Source: Opitutaceae bacterium (GTDB lineage: Bacteria > Verrucomicrobiota > Verrucomicrobiia > Opitutales > Opitutaceae). Taken from it: a stretch of 12,320 bases of DNA. The position numbers were made by a program, and so were the translations under genes. Below the pieces are notes generated by a model that was given only the letters and a program-made list of their open reading frames with translations, was not told where the DNA came from and ran no database searches. This document shows positions 3,272 through 12,320 of the stretch, piece by piece. How positions within the stretch are numbered: position 1 is the stretch's first letter; every line of letters starts with the position of its first letter. The DNA is taken from contig JAIRTK010000013.1 in the NCBI GenBank assembly GCA_031254955.1, forward strand, positions 1 through 12,320. The letters are read 5' to 3'.

Positions 3272-3413
3272 GAAAAATTAGGAATTAGAAATTGGAATTT
3301 AGGATTTGGAAAATGAGAGCGGGGTGGCGGCGTGAAATGCGGATGGGAATGAGGCGGCTTGGGCGTTTTTAATGCTTAAATTCTAAATCCTAATTTCTAA
3401 TTTCTAATTTTTC
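3272..3413. repeat. AT-rich inverted repeat pair spanning the cdsA-uppS gap
   Basis: The arms at 3272-3311 (made of AATTAG/GAATTAG units) and 3374-3413 (ATTCTAAATCC, AATTTCTAATTT) are imperfect reverse complements of about 40 nt. They enclose about 62 bp of GC-rich, unrecognised sequence. The AT content contrasts sharply with the surrounding genes. The right arm enters uppS and encodes its last residues (KLEIRN) and its TAG stop; the left arm ends 4 bp before the cdsA GTG. In RNA the arms could form a long hairpin between the two genes. Confidence 0.8.
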
Positions 3414-4275: not shown

Positions 4276-4416
4276 ATCGTTCTCGTTCTCATTCTCGTTC
4301 TCTTTCTCGTTCTCGAAGCATGACGAAAACAAAAACGAAAACCAAAAAGAGAACGAAAACAAAAAAGAGAATAAAAAAGAGAACGAGAACGAGAACGAGA
4401 AAGAGAACGATTTTTT
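4276..4416. repeat. GAGAAC-type hexamer-repeat hairpin element, copy 2 (uppS-ygiQ divergent gap)
   Basis: Left arm 4276-4314 and right arm 4373-4411 are complementary at 33 of 39 positions. Both are built of GAGAAC-like hexamers. The middle (4315-4372) contains GAAGCATGACGAAAAC followed by A-rich GAAAAC/AAAGAG units. The + strand again shows six T directly after the stem (4411-4416). Compared with copy 1, the middle segment is inverted and longer. The element occupies about half of the 298-bp divergent intergenic region. The rest (4185-4275 and 4417-4482) is GC-rich; I see no convincing promoter there, only a short GGGGAG...CTCCCC dyad at 4249-4267. Confidence 0.85.
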
Positions 4417-4482: not shown

Positions 4483-6426
4483 ATGTCCGCGTCCGCCCGC
4501 ACCGCACGCTTGCCAGCGCCCGCCGATCCGCGCGCGTTTTTGCCCACGTCGAAAAAGGAACTCGACGCGCGCGGCTGGGAGCGCGCGGACATCATTTTGT
4601 TCACGGGCGACGCTTACGTGGACCACCCGTCGTTTGGCGCGGCGGTGATCGGTCGCGTGCTGGAGGCGCGCGGCTGGCGCGTCGCGATCGTGCCGCAGCC
4701 CAACTGGCGCGACGACTTGCGCGACTTCCGCAAGCTCGGCGCGCCGCGGCTCTTCTTCGGCGTTTCCGCCGGCTGCATGGACAGCATGGTGAATCACTAC
4801 ACCGCCAACCGCCGCCTGCGCAGCGACGACGCCTACACGGCGGACGCGCGCGCCGGGGCGCGGCCCGACTACGCGGTCACGGTTTACACGCGGATACTCA
4901 AGCGGCTTTTCCCAGGCGCGCCCGTTGTCCTCGGGGGCATCGAGGCGTCGCTGCGGCGACTCACGCATTACGATTACTGGTCCGACACGCTGAAGCCCGG
5001 CATCCTGGTCGAGAGCGGCGCCGATTTGCTCGTTTACGGGGCGGGCGAAAAGCCGGTTTGCGAAATCGCCGCGCGCCTCGCCGCCGGCGAACCGGCGGGA
5101 GCGCTCGCCGACATCAGGCAAACCGCCTTCCTCGCGCCGCGCGATGCAGGGGCCTCGCTTGCGAAGCCCGTCGGCGGAGCGGTTGCAAAAAATGAAAACA
5201 CCACGCCGGCGGCAGAGCGGGCGGGAAACACGCTCGATGTCCAAAATCGCACGCGAACGGGCTTCGCAAGCGAAGCCCCTGCAGCCGCGCCGTCCTCCGC
5301 GGTCCTGCTGCATGCCTACGAGGACTGCCTCGCCGACCGGCGCAAGTTCGCCGCCAATTTCCGCCGCATCGAGGAAGAGTCCAACCGCGCCGCCGCCGCC
5401 ACGCTGGTTGAGCCGGTCGGCGACCGCGCCATCGTGGTCAATCCGCCGCATCCCTGCCTCACGCCCGCCGAGACCGACGCGTCCTTCGACCTCCCCTACA
5501 CGCGCCTTCCGCATCCGCGCTACAAAGGCCGCCGCATTCCGGCCTACGAGATGATCCGCCACTCGATCACGATGCATCGCGGCTGTTTTGGCGGATGCAG
5601 TTTCTGCACCATCTCCGCGCACCAAGGGAAATTCATCTCATCGCGCACGGAGGCCTCGATCCTGCGCGAAGTCGATCGCGTCGCGGCCATGCCGGATTTC
5701 AAGGGCAACATTAGCGACCTCGGCGGCCCCTCGGCCAACATGTATGGCTTGCGCGGACGCGACGAAACCGTCTGCGCGCGCTGCCGCCGCCCGTCGTGCC
5801 TGCACCCGCGCGTGTGCCGCAACCTCGACACCGACCTCACCCGGCTCACCGCGCTTTACCGGAAAGTCCTCGCGCATCCGAAGGTGAAACGCGCCTTCGT
5901 CGGCAGCGGCATCCGCTACGACATTTTTCTCGATGACAAGACCGGCGATTTCCGCTCGCCCGACGGGCGGACGTATTTCGAGCAACTCGTGCGCCACCAC
6001 GTTTCCGGGCGGTTGAAAGTCGCGCCCGAGCACAGCGCGCCGCACATCCTGGCGCACATCCGCAAGCCGGGCTTCGCGATGTTCGAGGCGTTCAAGGCCG
6101 CCTTTGACGACATCAACGAAAAAGAGGACCTGCGCCAGCAACTCGTCCCCTATTTTATTTCCAGCCTGCCGTATTGCCGCGAGGAGGACATGCGGGCGCT
6201 TTCGACCGACCTGAAGCGTCTCGGCTACAAGCTTGAGCAAGTGCAGGATTTCACGCCCACGCCGATGACGCTCGACTCCGCGATTTACCACAGCGGCATC
6301 GATCCCTACACGGGCAGGGAGGTATACGTCGCGCGCGCCCCCGGCGAAAAACTCCGACAGCGCGGATATTTTTTTGAATATCAAAAACACCTGCCGCGCA
6401 AGCGTGCGCACGGGCCGGGGAAATAG
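4483..6426 (+). CDS. ygiQ: YgiQ/UPF0313 family radical SAM protein with an in-frame REP-pair insertion
   Basis: This is a radical SAM enzyme of the YgiQ family, whose substrate is not established. In the 647-aa protein the N-terminal block FLPTSKKELDARGW (19-32) and DAYVDHPSFG (43-52) are typical. Next come GGIEASLRRLTHYDYWSD (151-168), the 4Fe-4S triad C368-x3-C372-x2-C375 in HRGCFGGCSFC, then a second Cys group C431, C434, C439, C445 typical of this family, and KVAPEHS (512-518). ATG 4483 is preceded by AGGA about 11 nt upstream. Residues 222-267 (5146-5282) do not resemble the family and are encoded by a palindromic repeat pair. The tail after about residue 620 looks shorter than in many homologues. 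It is divergent from uppS and converges on the restriction gene 63 bp away; that gap is purine-rich with no hairpin. Confidence 0.93.
   Translation: MSASARTARLPAPADPRAFLPTSKKELDARGWERADIILFTGDAYVDHPSFGAAVIGRVLEARGWRVAIVPQPNWRDDLRDFRKLGAPRLFFGVSAGCMDSMVNHYTANRRLRSDDAYTADARAGARPDYAVTVYTRILKRLFPGAPVVLGGIEASLRRLTHYDYWSDTLKPGILVESGADLLVYGAGEKPVCEIAARLAAGEPAGALADIRQTAFLAPRDAGASLAKPVGGAVAKNENTTPAAERAGNTLDVQNRTRTGFASEAPAAAPSSAVLLHAYEDCLADRRKFAANFRRIEEESNRAAAATLVEPVGDRAIVVNPPHPCLTPAETDASFDLPYTRLPHPRYKGRRIPAYEMIRHSITMHRGCFGGCSFCTISAHQGKFISSRTEASILREVDRVAAMPDFKGNISDLGGPSANMYGLRGRDETVCARCRRPSCLHPRVCRNLDTDLTRLTALYRKVLAHPKVKRAFVGSGIRYDIFLDDKTGDFRSPDGRTYFEQLVRHHVSGRLKVAPEHSAPHILAHIRKPGFAMFEAFKAAFDDINEKEDLRQQLVPYFISSLPYCREEDMRALSTDLKRLGYKLEQVQDFTPTPMTLDSAIYHSGIDPYTGREVYVARAPGEKLRQRGYFFEYQKHLPRKRAHGPGK
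5146..5282. repeat. BIME-like REP pair inside the ygiQ coding sequence
   Basis: Arms 5146-5170 and 5258-5282 are reverse complements at 24 of 25 positions. Each arm is itself a palindrome: GGGCTTCGC-AA-GCGAAGCCC at 5259-5278 (perfect, 9-2-9) and 5150-5169 (one mismatch). On the 5' side of each palindrome stands GCAG (5146-5149 on +, 5282-5279 on -), in the position where REPs carry GTAG or GTGG. The 87-bp spacer is unrelated GC-rich sequence. The whole unit is translated as residues 222-267 of YgiQ. Confidence 0.8.
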
Positions 6427-6489
6427 TTTTGGGAAAGGAGGAAAGAAAAACGAAAAATAGGAGGGAAAAGGACGACCGCGCCCCGATTC

Positions 6490-9400
6490 TCATCCCTGGC
6501 CGTTCAAATACTCCACCTCCGTCCGCAGCGTGTCCGGGTTTTTGCAGACGTGAAACGCCCAGCGACCCAGGCGCCCCCAGTTGTTCACGGCGCTCACCCA
6601 ACGCTTCGCGGCTTGGTGTTTCGCCTTCTCCTCCTCGCCCTCGTAACCCTTCACCTCCAGCAACAGGTTCACGCCGCTTGCCAGCCGCGCCACGAAGTCC
6701 GGCAAAAATTTGTGCGACACGCCGAGAAACTCATACGGCACCTCCAACCCGAGATGATCGTTGCGCGCGTAAAACATCACCGCGTCGCTCGCCTCCAACT
6801 GAAACGCCACCGAGCGCTCCCACGTGTCGGTGTCGAGCACCACGGCGTCGATGTGGCTTTTCAGCGTCGGGTGGCACGGGCGTTTCGTCGTGAAACTCAC
6901 GTCCGCCGTTGTGCCGCTTGGGTGGAAGCGGTTGATGACCGGCAGCAGCGGCGGCTCGCCGCCCGACTCGTCCGGCTCGATGGCGTCCGCCAGCAGGCCC
7001 ACGAGTTTTTGCGTGTAGGTTTCCAGCGCCAGTTCGCGCCGGTCGCAGCCATTCCAGCGCACGCGCCGCTCCGCGTAATTTTCCACAATCGCCAGCACCT
7101 GCGGAAACAACTGGTGCCGCGCGTGGTTTTTGAGTTTCGCCTCCGCGCCGCCCTGCGAGTCCGTCAGCCGCGAGACCAGCCGCCGCGTGATTTCAAACAG
7201 CACCGTTTGAAAATGCTGCTGCCGGTAAAATTCCTCGCGCGTCTGGCGCACCGTCTCGAACGCGCCGCTCATCAACGCGCCCTCCTTGATGCCGACCTGC
7301 GGCTGCACAAACACCTGCGTCGGCACGGTGGTCGGCTTGATTTCCAGCGCCTCCACTTTCGCGACATCGCAGCGGATTTTGTGCTGGCGCAGTTCGAGCA
7401 CATAGCCGTCCACGTTCGGGAAACGCAGTTCAAACGCCGCCCGCTCCGGCAGCGCGGAAATGCGCGTGACGGGCGTATCGTCTGGCGGCGCCGCCTTCGT
7501 TTCGCGCCCCTTGAAGGGGATCAGCGAGAACGGAATCCCGTAAACGTCCACATATTCCGGGCGCAAACGCTCTTCGCCAGCGGCGTTTTGCTCGACGTCA
7601 TAACTGATGCGCCGCAGCCCGCGCCCGACGACTTGCTCGCACAGCAACTGGCTGCCGAACGCCCGCAGCCCGAGGATTTGCGTGACGTTGCTGGCGTCCC
7701 AGCCCTCGGTGAGCATTTGCACGGAGACGACGCAGCGCACGTGCTCGCCGGCGGTGCCGGGCTTGCCGACGCTGGCGATGAGTTCGCGCAACCGCTCCGC
7801 CTCCTTCAACCTGCCGCCTCCCGCCCCGCCCGCGTCCGCCTCGGCGAGCAGTTTGCTGTCAATGCGCAGCGTCACCGTTTTCTCCGGCGAGTTCGCCAGT
7901 TCGCGGAAGGGCACTCCCGCCGCGCTGAAACGCCGCTCCTTGCGCGTCGTGGTTTTGCCGTCGTCGTCGGTCCCCTCGATTTCCTCGACGCGCTCTCCGG
8001 AGATGTGCTCGAAAACCACCTGCGCCAAATCCGTGTTGTCGCAGACGACGATGAGCACCGGCGGGATGAAGTTCTGCCCCGGCCTCGCCGCGCCGTGCTG
8101 CTCGAAACGCTGCTTCCACTGCGAGGCGAGCGTGTTGAACGCCGCCTGCGCCTCGCGCCACGCCGGCTCCGGCTTCGGCTTGCCGCGGTCAAAATTCGCG
8201 TCGCCGAGCGCCTTCAGCCGCCGGCGGATGTCCTCCCAGAGTTTGAAAAACTGCGGGTCTGGCCGCCCGGTGGTGTCGGCCACGGGGATGCGCGGAATTT
8301 TCGTGATGCCGCTCTCAATCGCGTCCACCAGCCCGAAGTCGCTCACGAGCCACGGAAACGGCGAACCCTCCACGTGCCCGCTGCCCGCGAGGTAGAACGG
8401 CGTCGCCGACAAGTCCACGCAGCACCTCACGCCGACGGACGCCTTGAGTTTGTCCAGCCCCTCGACCCACACCGTCGCCTCCGCGTTGTCCTCCTCGCTC
8501 GCCTCGCCGAACGCGGCCTCCGCGCCCTTCTTTTTCTTCAACGCCCGCACCGCCTTTTCCGGCGGCGCGGGACGGTAGGCGTGGTGCGCCTCGTCGTTCA
8601 GCACGAGCAATTCGCCGCGCCCGTAAAGTTCGCGCAGCACGCGCCGCGCGAAGGCGTCCGGCCCCTCCGCGCCCTTGTTGATGACCGCGTAATTTTTCCC
8701 GCCCTCCGCGTGCTCGCTCTCCGGCGCGAAGGCGTGCCAGTTCGTGACGAGCACGCGCCCCGCCTGCAAGTGCCCGCGCAGCGCCGGCGGCACGATGTCG
8801 AATTGCGCGAAATAACTTTTCTCCGGGTCGCCGTCCGTCCGCAGCACTTGCAGCCGCTCCTTCACGGTCAGGTTCGGGCAGCACACCAGCGCCGCCGAGG
8901 GAAACCGCGTGTCGCCCGGCACCGCGCCGCGATTGCAAAACGCCCACGCGAGCAGCATCGCCATCACGACCGTTTTTCCGCTGCCGGTCGCCATCTTGCA
9001 GCCGAGGCGCGTCAAGTCGCCGTCGCGCAGCATCGGGAAAAACGCGTCGCTCATGCCCGCCGCCAGCGGCGGCTTGTCACCGGCGATGAGCGCGGCGAAA
9101 TCCTCCGCCGACACCTCCGGCTTCCAGCGCGTCCGCCGCCCCGACGCCAGGATTTCGTTGAGATAAACCACCGTCTCCACCGCCTCCAACTGGCAGAAGA
9201 AAAACCGCCGCGCCCCGCGCTCCTTTCGCGCGTCGTCGCGCCAGTGCTCGAACAGCCGTCGCGTTGTTTTTGTCGCGTTCTCATAACCGCTCTCGCGCCA
9301 GCGTTTCACGTCCTTGCGCAGCGCGTTCACGAGCGCCAGCGGCTCGCTGCCGTAATCGCTTGCGATGCCTTCCAGCGACTCCTGCCCGGTCGTCACGCGC

Positions 9401-9582
9401 TGCGTCGTCCAGAAATACGCGGCGCCGCGCCGCCCGTCCATTTTGTTGGCGTGCCCGGTCTTGTCGTAGGCCCAAAACTGTTTCGGCTCCTCGAACGGGC
9501 TGTTGATGATCGGCTCCTCCACCGGCGCCTGAATCGGCAACTCGGCCTCGGGGGAAATGGATGTGGTGCGTGCGCGGGCCAT
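6490..9582 (-). CDS. Type III-like restriction endonuclease subunit (DEAD/DEAH helicase plus PD-(D/E)XK nuclease)
   Basis: This is the restriction subunit of an R-M system: an ATP-driven translocase that cuts unmodified DNA. Start ATG 9582 gives 1030 aa; it lies one base after the toxin stop (TAACATG) with GAGAAAG upstream. An in-frame TTG at 9600 would add six residues. Numbering from that TTG: Walker A ATGSGKT (204-210), DEAH (336-339), SAT (398-400), TEGWDASNV (631-639) and QVVGRGLRR (656-664) make a complete SF2 helicase set. Near the C-terminus L966-PDF (967-969) and LLLEVKG (E982, K984) form a PD-(D/E)XK-type nuclease site. The opening INSPFEEPKQFW resembles, from memory, the BPTD_3080-type restriction family. 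It is the last gene of the operon with the methyltransferase and antitoxin-toxin pair. It could be a close relative of Res rather than classical type III; sequence specificity cannot be read. Confidence 0.88.
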   Translation of the reverse strand: MARARTTSISPEAELPIQAPVEEPIINSPFEEPKQFWAYDKTGHANKMDGRRGAAYFWTTQRVTTGQESLEGIASDYGSEPLALVNALRKDVKRWRESGYENATKTTRRLFEHWRDDARKERGARRFFFCQLEAVETVVYLNEILASGRRTRWKPEVSAEDFAALIAGDKPPLAAGMSDAFFPMLRDGDLTRLGCKMATGSGKTVVMAMLLAWAFCNRGAVPGDTRFPSAALVCCPNLTVKERLQVLRTDGDPEKSYFAQFDIVPPALRGHLQAGRVLVTNWHAFAPESEHAEGGKNYAVINKGAEGPDAFARRVLRELYGRGELLVLNDEAHHAYRPAPPEKAVRALKKKKGAEAAFGEASEEDNAEATVWVEGLDKLKASVGVRCCVDLSATPFYLAGSGHVEGSPFPWLVSDFGLVDAIESGITKIPRIPVADTTGRPDPQFFKLWEDIRRRLKALGDANFDRGKPKPEPAWREAQAAFNTLASQWKQRFEQHGAARPGQNFIPPVLIVVCDNTDLAQVVFEHISGERVEEIEGTDDDGKTTTRKERRFSAAGVPFRELANSPEKTVTLRIDSKLLAEADAGGAGGGRLKEAERLRELIASVGKPGTAGEHVRCVVSVQMLTEGWDASNVTQILGLRAFGSQLLCEQVVGRGLRRISYDVEQNAAGEERLRPEYVDVYGIPFSLIPFKGRETKAAPPDDTPVTRISALPERAAFELRFPNVDGYVLELRQHKIRCDVAKVEALEIKPTTVPTQVFVQPQVGIKEGALMSGAFETVRQTREEFYRQQHFQTVLFEITRRLVSRLTDSQGGAEAKLKNHARHQLFPQVLAIVENYAERRVRWNGCDRRELALETYTQKLVGLLADAIEPDESGGEPPLLPVINRFHPSGTTADVSFTTKRPCHPTLKSHIDAVVLDTDTWERSVAFQLEASDAVMFYARNDHLGLEVPYEFLGVSHKFLPDFVARLASGVNLLLEVKGYEGEEEKAKHQAAKRWVSAVNNWGRLGRWAFHVCKNPDTLRTEVEYLNGQG

Positions 9583-9583
9583 G

Positions 9584-10018
9584 TTAGTTTGCTTTCTCAA
9601 AAATTTCCCGGAATGTCTCCGGCGTCAGGATGGGGCAGTCCTTGAAACCGGAAACCGCGAGCAGGTCGGCGTCGCCCGTCACCAGATAATCCGCCTTCCC
9701 CGCCCGCGCCAGCGCGAGGAACTTCACGTCGTCCGCGTCGCGACACTCGGGCAGTTTCGCCATTTTTTTCGGCACGTCGGTCGTTTCGGCATGGGGCAAA
9801 TAGGCGCCGAGAACCGCCTGTCGCTCCCACTCGTCCAAGCCAAATTTCGGATACGCCAGCACGCGCAGCAACTCCGTCACGCTCTCCCGCGATGCCAGCG
9901 GCGCGAGCCGCCCGTTTTGCCACGCCCCGACCAGCCAACTCACGCGCCCCGAGCGAAACAGCAGCGCGGACAGCACGACGTTCGTGTCAAGCACGACGCG
10001 CGGCGGCGTTTTTTTCAT
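9584..10018 (-). CDS. PIN-domain toxin of a type II toxin-antitoxin system (PIN family ribonuclease)
   Basis: This is a PIN-fold metal-dependent ribonuclease, probably cleaving RNA when free of its antitoxin. The 144-aa product (from ATG 10018) starts RVVLDTNVVLSALL with D11. It then shows E49, the acidic cluster RDADDVKFLALA (D94, D96, D97) and TGDADLL (D116, D118), the expected PIN acidic residues, in the layout of the 'putative toxin component, PIN family' group. ATG 10018 overlaps the antitoxin stop as ATGA, a usual toxin-antitoxin coupling. An earlier in-frame ATG at 10039 would add seven residues and overlap the antitoxin by 25 nt; I consider it less likely. Its TAA is one base from the restriction gene ATG. 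Toxicity and target are inferred from family and context. Confidence 0.88.
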   Translation of the reverse strand: MKKTPPRVVLDTNVVLSALLFRSGRVSWLVGAWQNGRLAPLASRESVTELLRVLAYPKFGLDEWERQAVLGAYLPHAETTDVPKKMAKLPECRDADDVKFLALARAGKADYLVTGDADLLAVSGFKDCPILTPETFREIFEKAN

Positions 10019-10242
10019 GCCTGCTTTTTTCGCGCCCATGACACGGCCTCCTTCACGTCGTCCTCGGTGATGCCGAGCGCCTCCAGTTTCCCGCGCACCG
10101 CGCCAAGCGGCACAGGGTTGAGTGGCTCCAGGATAATCCGTCCGTTTTCCTCCCCGACATTGAAAAGCCGGACGCCCGCGAAACGTCCCGCGATGGCCTT
10201 GGGAAGCGTGAGTTGGTTTTTGCTGGTGAGTGTTGCGATCAT
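10015..10242 (-). CDS. AbrB/MazE-like antitoxin (SpoVT-AbrB domain)
   Basis: This is a small DNA-binding antitoxin, expected to bind the PIN toxin through its C-terminus and to repress its own promoter through the swapped-hairpin AbrB domain. The 75 aa contain the domain at the N-terminus: MIATLTSKNQLTLPKAI (1-17), then RLFNVGEENGRIILEPL (about 25-41). The remainder is charged and predicted helical (KLEALGITEDDVKEAVSWARKKQ), suited to toxin binding. A good Shine-Dalgarno, AAAGGA, stands 6 nt before ATG 10242. The stop overlaps the toxin start (ATGA). It follows the methyltransferase gene by 52 bp of purine-rich (sense strand) sequence, so it may be co-transcribed with it or have its own promoter there; no promoter is clear. 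Confidence 0.88.
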   Translation of the reverse strand: MIATLTSKNQLTLPKAIAGRFAGVRLFNVGEENGRIILEPLNPVPLGAVRGKLEALGITEDDVKEAVSWARKKQA

Positions 10243-10294
10243 AATGATTCCTTTCTTCCTTACTTCATTACTTTCTTTCGACGCGTCTGTTTTG

Positions 10295-12320
10295 TCAATT
10301 CTCCTCTCCTTTCGAGTAATCCGTGTCGAGCGAATGCACGCGCATCACCTCGTTGCCGCGCGGGTCAATCACCTTCACCGCCACGCGCCCGCGCGGGCCG
10401 GGCTTGAACGGCAGGCTCTCCGTCCCCGACAGCGCCGCGAACGCCCCCGGCTCCAGCCCCGTCTTCAACGCCCGCGCGATTTTGTCCCACGCCGTCTTGT
10501 CCGGGAAAAACGCCTGGCACACGCAGAACACTTTCCCGTCGTAATCGGTGTCCACGAACCACGCCGCCACCCTGTCCGCGCCCGTCGCGTCCAGCGCGTT
10601 CGTCACGGGGTTGTAGAGGTCAACGCCTTCCATGCGGACGATGTATTCCGGTAGGGCGGTTTCGCCGAAACCGCCGCCCCCGTCCGTGGCGTTTTGCGGA
10701 CGGCTCGGCGAGCCGTCCCCACCTTGGGCAACCTGCCGCACGCTGGTGCGCGGCTGGCCGAACACCGTGAAGATTTGCTCCACCTTGTTCGTCTTCTTGA
10801 GCAAGTCCTCCATGCCCACGTCGGGGCGGATTTGCGCCATGTGGATGCGCATCTTCGCGCCCTTGCGCTCGTTTTCCGCCGCGATGGTTTCCTGCGCCTG
10901 CGCGTCGAAGGAAAACCCGGCGAAGATCAAATCGTCGTAGCCGCGACGGAAGGCGTCGCGCAGCGCGTTTTCCACCTGATAACTCGTCACGCTCCCGAAC
11001 TCCGGCCCGATGACCACCGCCGCGCGGCGCGGTTCGCCTCCGTCCGCCGCAATCTCCCCCTCGCCGTGCAGAAAACAGCCGTCCACCGCGTCGAGCCGCG
11101 CGAATGCCGCGTGCTTGTTGCCCAGAAACGTCACGCCGTCGTGACGCAGCCAGCCGAGCATCCGCTCGATGTGCGAGGCCGCGTTGGCCGAATCGCGCTC
11201 CGGCGTCTCGGTCGCCTCAAAGGTCTCCGGCAACTGGTCCGGCGCACCGTCAATCGGTGTTTCCTCATTGTCGCCCGCGCCGCCTTTCAGCGACGTTTCC
11301 GGCGGCCTCATGCTTTCCACCGTGAACGGCCCGCTTACGCGCGCGACGCCACGCAACGCCTCCGGCTGGTCAACCAGTTCCTCTTGCTCGGCGTTGGCGG
11401 CGATGGCGGCGTTCACCTCGTCCATCTTCGCCCGCCACGCGGCGCGGTAGGCGGCAAGCGCGTCGCGCAACTCCGCCGGCCAGTCCGGGTCGCTGTCAAA
11501 CGGCGCCTGCCACGGCTGCCATTCTTTTTCACGCGAAGCCGCGAAAGCGCGGAGTTCGGCGACTTGTTTGGCCGAGAGCGTTTTCGCCGTTGCCGCTGCT
11601 TGGAACAAGTTGCCGTCCGTCCCCGGCAGAATCCACCGCCGCTTGTCCGCCTCGGTGACGGACGACCATTTTTCGGCGGCAACTTTCGCGAGGAGTTTGG
11701 CAACGAGTTTTGCAGGTAGGGCGGTCTCGCCGAGACCGCCGTTCCCGTGATTGCCACCATTGCCCTCTCGCGGCGGTTTCGGCGAAACCGCCCTACCAAG
11801 CGCCGCGTTCAACGCCGCCAGTTTTTCCGCGAGGATTGGCTCGTGTTTGGCGAAGATGGCATCGAGCGCCTTGTTTTGGGCGATGCTTTTCAGGGTGATG
11901 TGCGGCACCGTCTTGTAATAAAAACCGAACGCCGGATTTTGCGGTGCGTTCGGGTCGGCGCCGGCGGACGGGTCGCGGGTCTTGTAGGTGTCGAAGCACG
12001 CCGTCAGCAGCCGCTGCCGCGCAATCGCGATGGCGACGCGGGAAGTATCAATCGTAATCCACCGCCGCCCCCATTGCTCCGCAACATAGGCGGTGGTGCC
12101 GCTCCCGCACGTCGGGTCCAAAACAAGGTCGCCGGGCGAGGTCGTCATTAACAGGCAACGTTGGATGACTTTCGGAACAGTTTGGACAACATACATCCTG
12201 AAGTCACCACCTCCTGTAGCCGCATCTGTCCATGTGCTCGTAAGTTCCATGAATGGGTAATCAGAAAAACGTCGCAAAAATGAAATCGAATTTCCTCCAG
12301 CAATGATTCGATTCGCCTGA
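10295..12320 (-). CDS. Site-specific DNA methyltransferase (Mod-like, beta class; 5' end cut by window edge) with two in-frame REP pairs
   Basis: This is the modification partner of the downstream restriction gene, an amino-methyltransferase (N6-adenine or N4-cytosine) using SAM. The frame is open to the window edge. The codons before the TTG at 12277 read RIIAGGNSISF, family-like, so the start and the DPPY catalytic motif lie beyond base 12320. Numbering from that TTG: YVVQTVPKVIQRCLL (29-43), the SAM motif LDPTCGSGTTAYVAEQW (53-69) and WITIDTSRVAIA (73-84) close the catalytic domain. Circular order (DPPY first, FGG-like motif later) fits the beta class. The long C-terminal part has GPFTVESMRPPET and an FLGNKHAAFARLD region typical of R-M-linked methyltransferases. 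Residues 161-188 and 519-543 are encoded by palindromic REP pairs and should not align to homologues. Stop TGA at 10295. Confidence 0.88.
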   Translation of the reverse strand, partial: QANRIIAGGNSISFLRRFSDYPFMELTSTWTDAATGGGDFRMYVVQTVPKVIQRCLLMTTSPGDLVLDPTCGSGTTAYVAEQWGRRWITIDTSRVAIAIARQRLLTACFDTYKTRDPSAGADPNAPQNPAFGFYYKTVPHITLKSIAQNKALDAIFAKHEPILAEKLAALNAALGRAVSPKPPREGNGGNHGNGGLGETALPAKLVAKLLAKVAAEKWSSVTEADKRRWILPGTDGNLFQAAATAKTLSAKQVAELRAFAASREKEWQPWQAPFDSDPDWPAELRDALAAYRAAWRAKMDEVNAAIAANAEQEELVDQPEALRGVARVSGPFTVESMRPPETSLKGGAGDNEETPIDGAPDQLPETFEATETPERDSANAASHIERMLGWLRHDGVTFLGNKHAAFARLDAVDGCFLHGEGEIAADGGEPRRAAVVIGPEFGSVTSYQVENALRDAFRRGYDDLIFAGFSFDAQAQETIAAENERKGAKMRIHMAQIRPDVGMEDLLKKTNKVEQIFTVFGQPRTSVRQVAQGGDGSPSRPQNATDGGGGFGETALPEYIVRMEGVDLYNPVTNALDATGADRVAAWFVDTDYDGKVFCVCQAFFPDKTAWDKIARALKTGLEPGAFAALSGTESLPFKPGPRGRVAVKVIDPRGNEVMRVHSLDTDYSKGEEN
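10650..10723. repeat. BIME-like REP pair 1 inside the methyltransferase gene
   Basis: Two 21-nt palindromes, each 10-1-10, face each other. The first is GGCGGTTTCG-C-CGAAACCGCC at 10655-10675, directly preceded by GTAG (10651-10654). The second, at 10698-10718, has stem GGACGGCTCG and on the - strand is directly preceded by GTGG (10722-10719). The spacer is 22 bp. From tetranucleotide to tetranucleotide the unit is 72 bp, a multiple of three. It is translated on the - strand as a Gly-rich stretch ending GFGETALP (residues 519-543). Confidence 0.85.
11715..11797. repeat. BIME-like REP pair 2 inside the methyltransferase gene
   Basis: Palindrome GGCGGTCTCG-C-CGAGACCGCC at 11720-11740 is preceded by GTAG (11716-11719). 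Palindrome GGCGGTTTCG-G-CGAAACCGCC at 11772-11792 is preceded by GTAG on the - strand (11796-11793). The outer 7 bp, GGTAGGG and CCCTACC, are perfect inverted ends; the spacer is 31 bp. The unit from GTAG to CTAC is 81 bp, a multiple of three. It is translated on the - strand from GRAVSPKPP to GLGETALP (residues 161-188). Confidence 0.87.

Follow-up and report, generated by a model that had tools for sequence, protein, structure and literature searches.

REPINs read in frame within ygiQ and a DNA methylase gene on one contig of an Opitutaceae bacterium

Genes of the window and anatomy of its REPINs

We have analysed a stretch of 12,320 bp (the window), which is the entire contig C448 of an Opitutaceae bacterium. 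The host MAG has 3.58 Mb on 574 contigs and is 68.7% complete; the assembly is fragmentary as well as incomplete, and contig ends may coincide with repeats. In order, the window carries the end of a methyltransferase gene, genes that we take from their translations to be dxr-, cdsA- and uppS-like, ygiQ, a restriction endonuclease gene, a PIN toxin gene and a DNA methylase gene. The ygiQ gene (4483..6426, + strand) encodes a YgiQ family radical SAM protein (TIGR03904 SAM_YgiQ, 762 bits, cut-off 462), and the restriction endonuclease gene (6490..9600, - strand) is of the BPTD_3080 family (NF046055 restr_BPTD_3080, 935 bits, cut-off 800). Between the restriction and methylase genes, at 9584-10243, lie the PIN toxin gene (TIGR00305, 64 bits, cut-off 29) and a short ORF that looks AbrB-like by eye. 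The adenine DNA methylase gene (10295..12319, - strand) loses its 5' end at the contig end. Its homologues carry PF01555, no NCBIfam model scored above its cut-off in the NCBIfam scan, and the neighbouring gene suggests that the methylase is type III-like.

The window also holds other repeats. At 2301-2390 and 4276-4412 there are long hairpins in which degenerate GTTCTC/GAGAAC hexamer repeats flank a TTTTCGTCATGYTTCGAG loop, with a T run at the end. Their 14-mer GAGAACGAGAACGA is the most frequent repeated 14-mer in the 120-contig sample described below, with 101 copies. An intergenic AT-rich inverted repeat occupies 3272-3307 and 3378-3413, its arms being 89% complementary at a spacing of 70 nt.

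When ten REP consensuses were compared with the window at up to four mismatches, matches were found at 5149-5279, 10652-10721 and 11717-11795 and nowhere else, so that the restriction endonuclease gene, the neighbour of the methylase gene, had none. These matches are six palindromic units in three head-out inverted doublets. All six units lie within reading frames, one doublet being carried in frame by ygiQ and two by the methylase gene, and the intergenic gaps hold none. The unit begins with a GTAG-like head (GTAG in families B, C, D, E and F; GTAG or GCAG in family A) and continues as an imperfect palindrome. This is the anatomy of GTAG REPs arranged as REPINs.

REPIN 1 (5146..5282, 137 nt; no strand is assigned to any of the three) is a family A doublet, GCAGGGGCCTCGCTTGCGAAGCCC ... 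GGGCTTCGCAAGCGAAGCCCCTGC. Its ends are almost perfect and its spacer (5170-5258) is only weakly like other family A spacers, a point against its being a typical copy, the five best lying 2.1 to 3.6 sd above shuffles and the sixth 0.9. REPIN 2 (10650..10723, 74 nt) is a mixed doublet of GGTAGGGCGGTTTCGCCGAAACCGCC, family B, and, on the - strand, GGTGGGGACGGCTCGCCGAGCCGTCC, family C, the latter with the head GTGG (10698-10723). REPIN 3 (11715..11797, 83 nt) is a family B2/B doublet of GGTAGGGCGGTCTCGCCGAGACCGCC and, on the - strand, GGTAGGGCGGTTTCGCCGAAACCGCC. As single-stranded DNA, REPIN 1 and REPIN 3 fold much better than shuffles (z -6.9 and -8.7). The fold of REPIN 2 is not clearly beyond shuffles (z -1.6), 15 of 200 being equally good.

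Read directly on the gene strand, the forward unit gives GGT AGG GCG GTT TCG CCG AAA CCG and the reverse unit GGC GGT TTC GGC GAA ACC GCC CTA CC. The ORF translations show no stop codon in the frames used by all three doublets. The GTAG head closes a single frame (GG TAG), which none of the three doublets uses; as about 3 in 10 is the chance expectation for this, the avoidance is uninformative.

Insert-free relatives of ygiQ and the methylase

We compared the genes with relatives. The ygiQ product of G002, a genome of the same genus, is 93% identical to the window protein over residues 1-222 and 97% over residues 267-643, and the intervening stretch is absent in G002. Where G002 reads LAPR-A-AAPSS, the window reads LAPR-(47 residues)-AAPSS, a net gain of 46 codons or 138 nt, adjoining the 137-nt doublet. 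At the same site G001 has an unrelated alanine-rich linker, and G004, G012 and G013 have short linkers that differ. Accordingly, the place of the YgiQ insert tolerates change. A YgiQ search of genome contigs gave at least 80 loci, none titled Opitutaceae among the matches listed, and the empty-site comparison was made without it.

The methylase was aligned with 119 homologues (P0002-P0120); the alignment was made twice with slightly differing columns, and one version is quoted here. P0004, P0024 and P0025 are Opitutaceae by source name among the 120 methylase homologues listed. At 10650-10723, all 119 homologues have 3-5 residues against 26 in the window. At 11715-11797, 116 of the 119 have 8-15 residues against 28 in the window, and the remaining three have 39, 43 or 60. 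REPIN 3 is 83 nt long, but by eye the window methylase is just about 16 residues longer here than P0038 or P0004; it is thus not a clean insertion, and the neighbouring linker is also altered. At the place of REPIN 3, the P0039 methylase has a different insert (CGSPLP...RGLP), perhaps another repeat family. P0038 was considered as a paralogue from the same genome, and this was rejected, P0038 being absent from this assembly.

Judged from these alignments, the doublets of the window are insertions, and the reading of the earlier note that the copies persist as in-frame peptides holds: they are true insertions, absent from G002 ygiQ and, at 10650-10723, from the 119 homologues. In this lineage, REPINs have supplied proteins with insertions of about 25 to 46 residues. 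The added value of the window lies in these examples of REPINs within proteins with insert-free relatives, namely G002 for YgiQ and the 119 homologues for one methylase insert.

Placement of REP units in the genome and their reading frames

We mapped the units with the ten consensuses at up to three mismatches in a random sample of 120 of the other 573 contigs (741,486 bp, about one fifth of the assembly, GC 60%). Genes were called with a home-made hexamer model, which gave 423 genes and 72% coding in the sample; it misses short genes and was judged on the window and the 72% coding fraction alone. Of 286 units, 281 are intergenic, 3 lie inside genes and 2 on edges. With its setting unchanged, this caller puts every one of the six window units within a gene, and hence genic copies are not simply missed by it. 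The reversed consensuses had no match in the sample against 286 for the true ones, so the REP units are not due to chance. One might still ask whether the palindromes arose by coincidence in GC-rich coding sequence, in view of the GC content of the sample and the many inverted repeats in the window; given this control and the absence of the inserts from relatives, we regard that explanation as next to impossible.

Of the three genic units of the sample, one (E2) is near the 3' end of a GH106-type gene, another (A2) lies in a kinase-WD40 gene, and the third (D) falls between the Wzy_C and TPR parts of its gene. Outside the sample, three more units lie in a GH106-type gene on C323, a contig chosen for B or C type cores. 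Of the six exact B cores in G004, five lie outside called genes and one within; the gene that holds the latter is hsdM-like (156 bits, cut-off 243) and has this single B unit, reading ...TGRAVSPKPPSPK....

Family B seemed more genic than B2 (5/11 vs 0/39) in a set made of 20 contigs chosen for such matches and 15 short loci. Nothing is claimed from this, the set being biased, with some contigs double-counted, and the G004 B cores being genic in 1/6; the five genic B units are one window unit, the three C323 units and one unheaded match. The flank test that gave these B and B2 counts omitted, at its threshold, the window units at 5149-5279 and 11717-11795, and the counts quoted here are those of the 120-contig sample.

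The earlier note was right that, within the window, every palindromic unit is inside a gene. It took this for the reverse of the E. coli or Pseudomonas REP pattern. With 281/286 sampled units intergenic, the reversal holds for this contig alone, and most copies being extragenic is the main part of what that note had itself named as speaking against its proposal. Three genic REPINs on one contig are far above the genome-wide rate, a point against reading them as ordinary survivors, and the contig was noticed because of them. We regard what looked like an inversion of the REP rule as a survivor effect on one contig.

That proposal was a frame-preserving, protein-coding system resembling the Rickettsia palindromic elements, in which the repeat is selected to be stop-free and so able to live in genes. 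The three window copies, all read in frame, fit it. On the one hand, single REP consensuses leave 5 or 6 of six frames open, at or slightly above shuffles in 9/9 cases (F equal), although TAG is present in one frame of the GTAG head on direct reading. On the other hand, whole doublets in the sample behave nearly as expected from composition: they have 3.55 open frames of six against 3.21 in dinucleotide shuffles, with family A above (4.48 vs 3.68), F and E slightly above and family D below (2.21 vs 2.48). Doublet length is divisible by three in 38, 32 or 31 of 101 doublets, which is near chance; the end points had omitted part of the head, and the count was repeated with all three offsets. At one end setting 12/16 family F doublets are divisible by three, yet all 39 sampled F units are intergenic.

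The placement of the doublets bears on the same proposal. About 73 of the 101 doublets would be genic under random insertion, and 16, 11 or 12 of them, by offset, would be so with an open frame; the number observed inside called genes in the sample was zero. Stop-free frames do not, then, let doublets inhabit genes in any number. Since copies within a REP family are near-identical and not independent events, only the counts are quoted and no binomial figure is given. Considering that 98% of the sampled units are intergenic and that genic doublets fall below what frame alone allows, we hold a system selected for life inside proteins to be extremely unlikely. The lack of stops in the window copies is real, but its selection, as suggested earlier, is not borne out.

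The shortfall of 0/101 against 11-16 may mean either that such peptides are also purged by selection or that genes are avoided at insertion. The latter reading, a target choice that places the elements preferentially outside genes, would agree with a depletion beyond the prediction from frame and stops. However, in-frame inserts of 25-46 residues should mostly harm proteins, in which case selection accounts for the same depletion, and the three window insertions show that genes can be hit. We consider target choice rather unlikely. Rare genic insertions of REPINs that survive at tolerant places, the rest presumably being removed by selection, are very probably what the window displays. Copies that hit genes would be absent in nearly all cases, and the exceptions would be those that keep the frame open by length and phase and sit where change is tolerated, for instance in a variable linker. 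Three such survivors would be present in the window, one in the variable linker of YgiQ and two in the DNA methylase, and the inserts probably occupy loops or linkers of the folded proteins.

REP-associated transposases and relation to described systems

REPINs are non-autonomous, and the three doublets were presumably copied by the REP-associated tyrosine transposases (RAYTs) of this genome. Y1_Tnp occurs six times in the assembly, and five of the proteins were scanned, that of C242 being left out. Against NF047646 REP_Tyr_transpos (cut-off 80), the C398 protein scored above the cut-off with 95.5 bits, and those of C87 (78.6) and C529 (68.9) below it; two further proteins are of the IS200 family, above its cut-off. 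The C529 transposase gene is flanked by exact family A doublets, one on either side and about 250 nt or less from the matched domain, and just upstream of the C398 gene lies a family F doublet. No REP doublet was found near the C87 gene in the 1.6 kb read. Doublets thus adjoin two of the three NF047646-matching genes, which agrees, together with the GTAG anatomy, with the earlier view that the ends are RAYT-type REPs. At locus L268 (G000 C529:8000-9700), the transposase gene and both flanking family A REPINs share one stop-to-stop frame.

In the sample, 202 of the 286 units pair as head-out doublets, and the preferred spacings are family-specific: mostly 25, 42, 59 or 88 nt in family A, mostly 51-54 in family D, 13-15 in 15/16 doublets of family F, and mostly 25-29 or 64-65 in family E. 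The TAGGG-palindrome pattern is present in 10 of 23 genomes searched, the source genome included, with 296 matches in that genome, 89 in G001 and 20 in G002, and no match for the controls, which were the patterns read backwards. The copies are accordingly numerous as well as mostly extragenic.

Opitutus terrae belongs to the same family as the source organism. Rickettsia palindromic elements are mainly genic and lie in frame within ORFs. Unlike them, the copies described here are almost all intergenic, and membership of that group was rejected, with 3/286 sampled units inside called genes. The 2013 BMC Genomics paper on GTAG REPs is reportedly by Di Nocera and others, and the 2011 PLoS Genet paper on REPINs is said to be by Bertels and Rainey.

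As far as the cited passages of the BMC Genomics paper go (PMC3733652), GTAG REPs are divided into 24 families, and in-frame GTAG REPs are described outside Rickettsia, most of them in O. terrae, which is placed there in Verrucomicrobia, but also in other species. The same passages already compare intragenic GTAG REPs with the Rickettsia elements, which like the window copies are palindromic elements read as in-frame peptides, and they class RPE-4 and RPE-6 of R. conorii as CGTC, not GTAG, repeats. The combination of REP ends with in-frame peptides outside Rickettsia, raised earlier for the window, was therefore published in 2013, and the window is a fresh example of an event already described in a related bacterium, not a new system.

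The likeness to O. terrae, as portrayed in those parts of PMC3733652, extends to several families side by side, a GTGG variant (most O. terrae GTAG-20 elements have the GTGG head), dimers, a majority of REPs in intergenic positions, and REPs inside ORFs, twice in some genes, with dimers encoding 20-30 residues. The comparison is one of general features, not of single families such as GTAG-17, -19 or -20. Unlike that case, the organism is another one and the genes hit are ygiQ and a DNA methylase gene. A literature search by organism name gave no paper on REPs as far as titles show, and papers writing only 'O. terrae' would escape it.

On the effect of the peptides, the cited passages of PMC3733652 point both ways: flexible linkers or loops may make REP insertions neutral, and fortuitous hits in replication and repair genes are called hard to believe, with functional effects speculated upon. 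The inserted peptides here are probably neutral, although the latter view counts against this. Some in-frame REPINs of this bacterial family might be kept for protein function, for example in DNA methylases, and methylase-type genes with REPs include both the window methylase with two REPINs and the G004 hsdM-like gene with its single B unit; we nevertheless think this very unlikely beside the rare survival of insertions at tolerant places.

REPINs were defined in PMC3116915, in the relevant parts of which they are, as here, inverted REP doublets with a preferred spacing, present in hundreds of copies and mainly extragenic. In P. fluorescens SBW25, according to the same parts, only 14 of the 16-mers overlap genes, the most abundant 16-mers having 1,067 occurrences. 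This rate of gene overlap is near the rate found here, although the organism is a Pseudomonas and the sequences differ.
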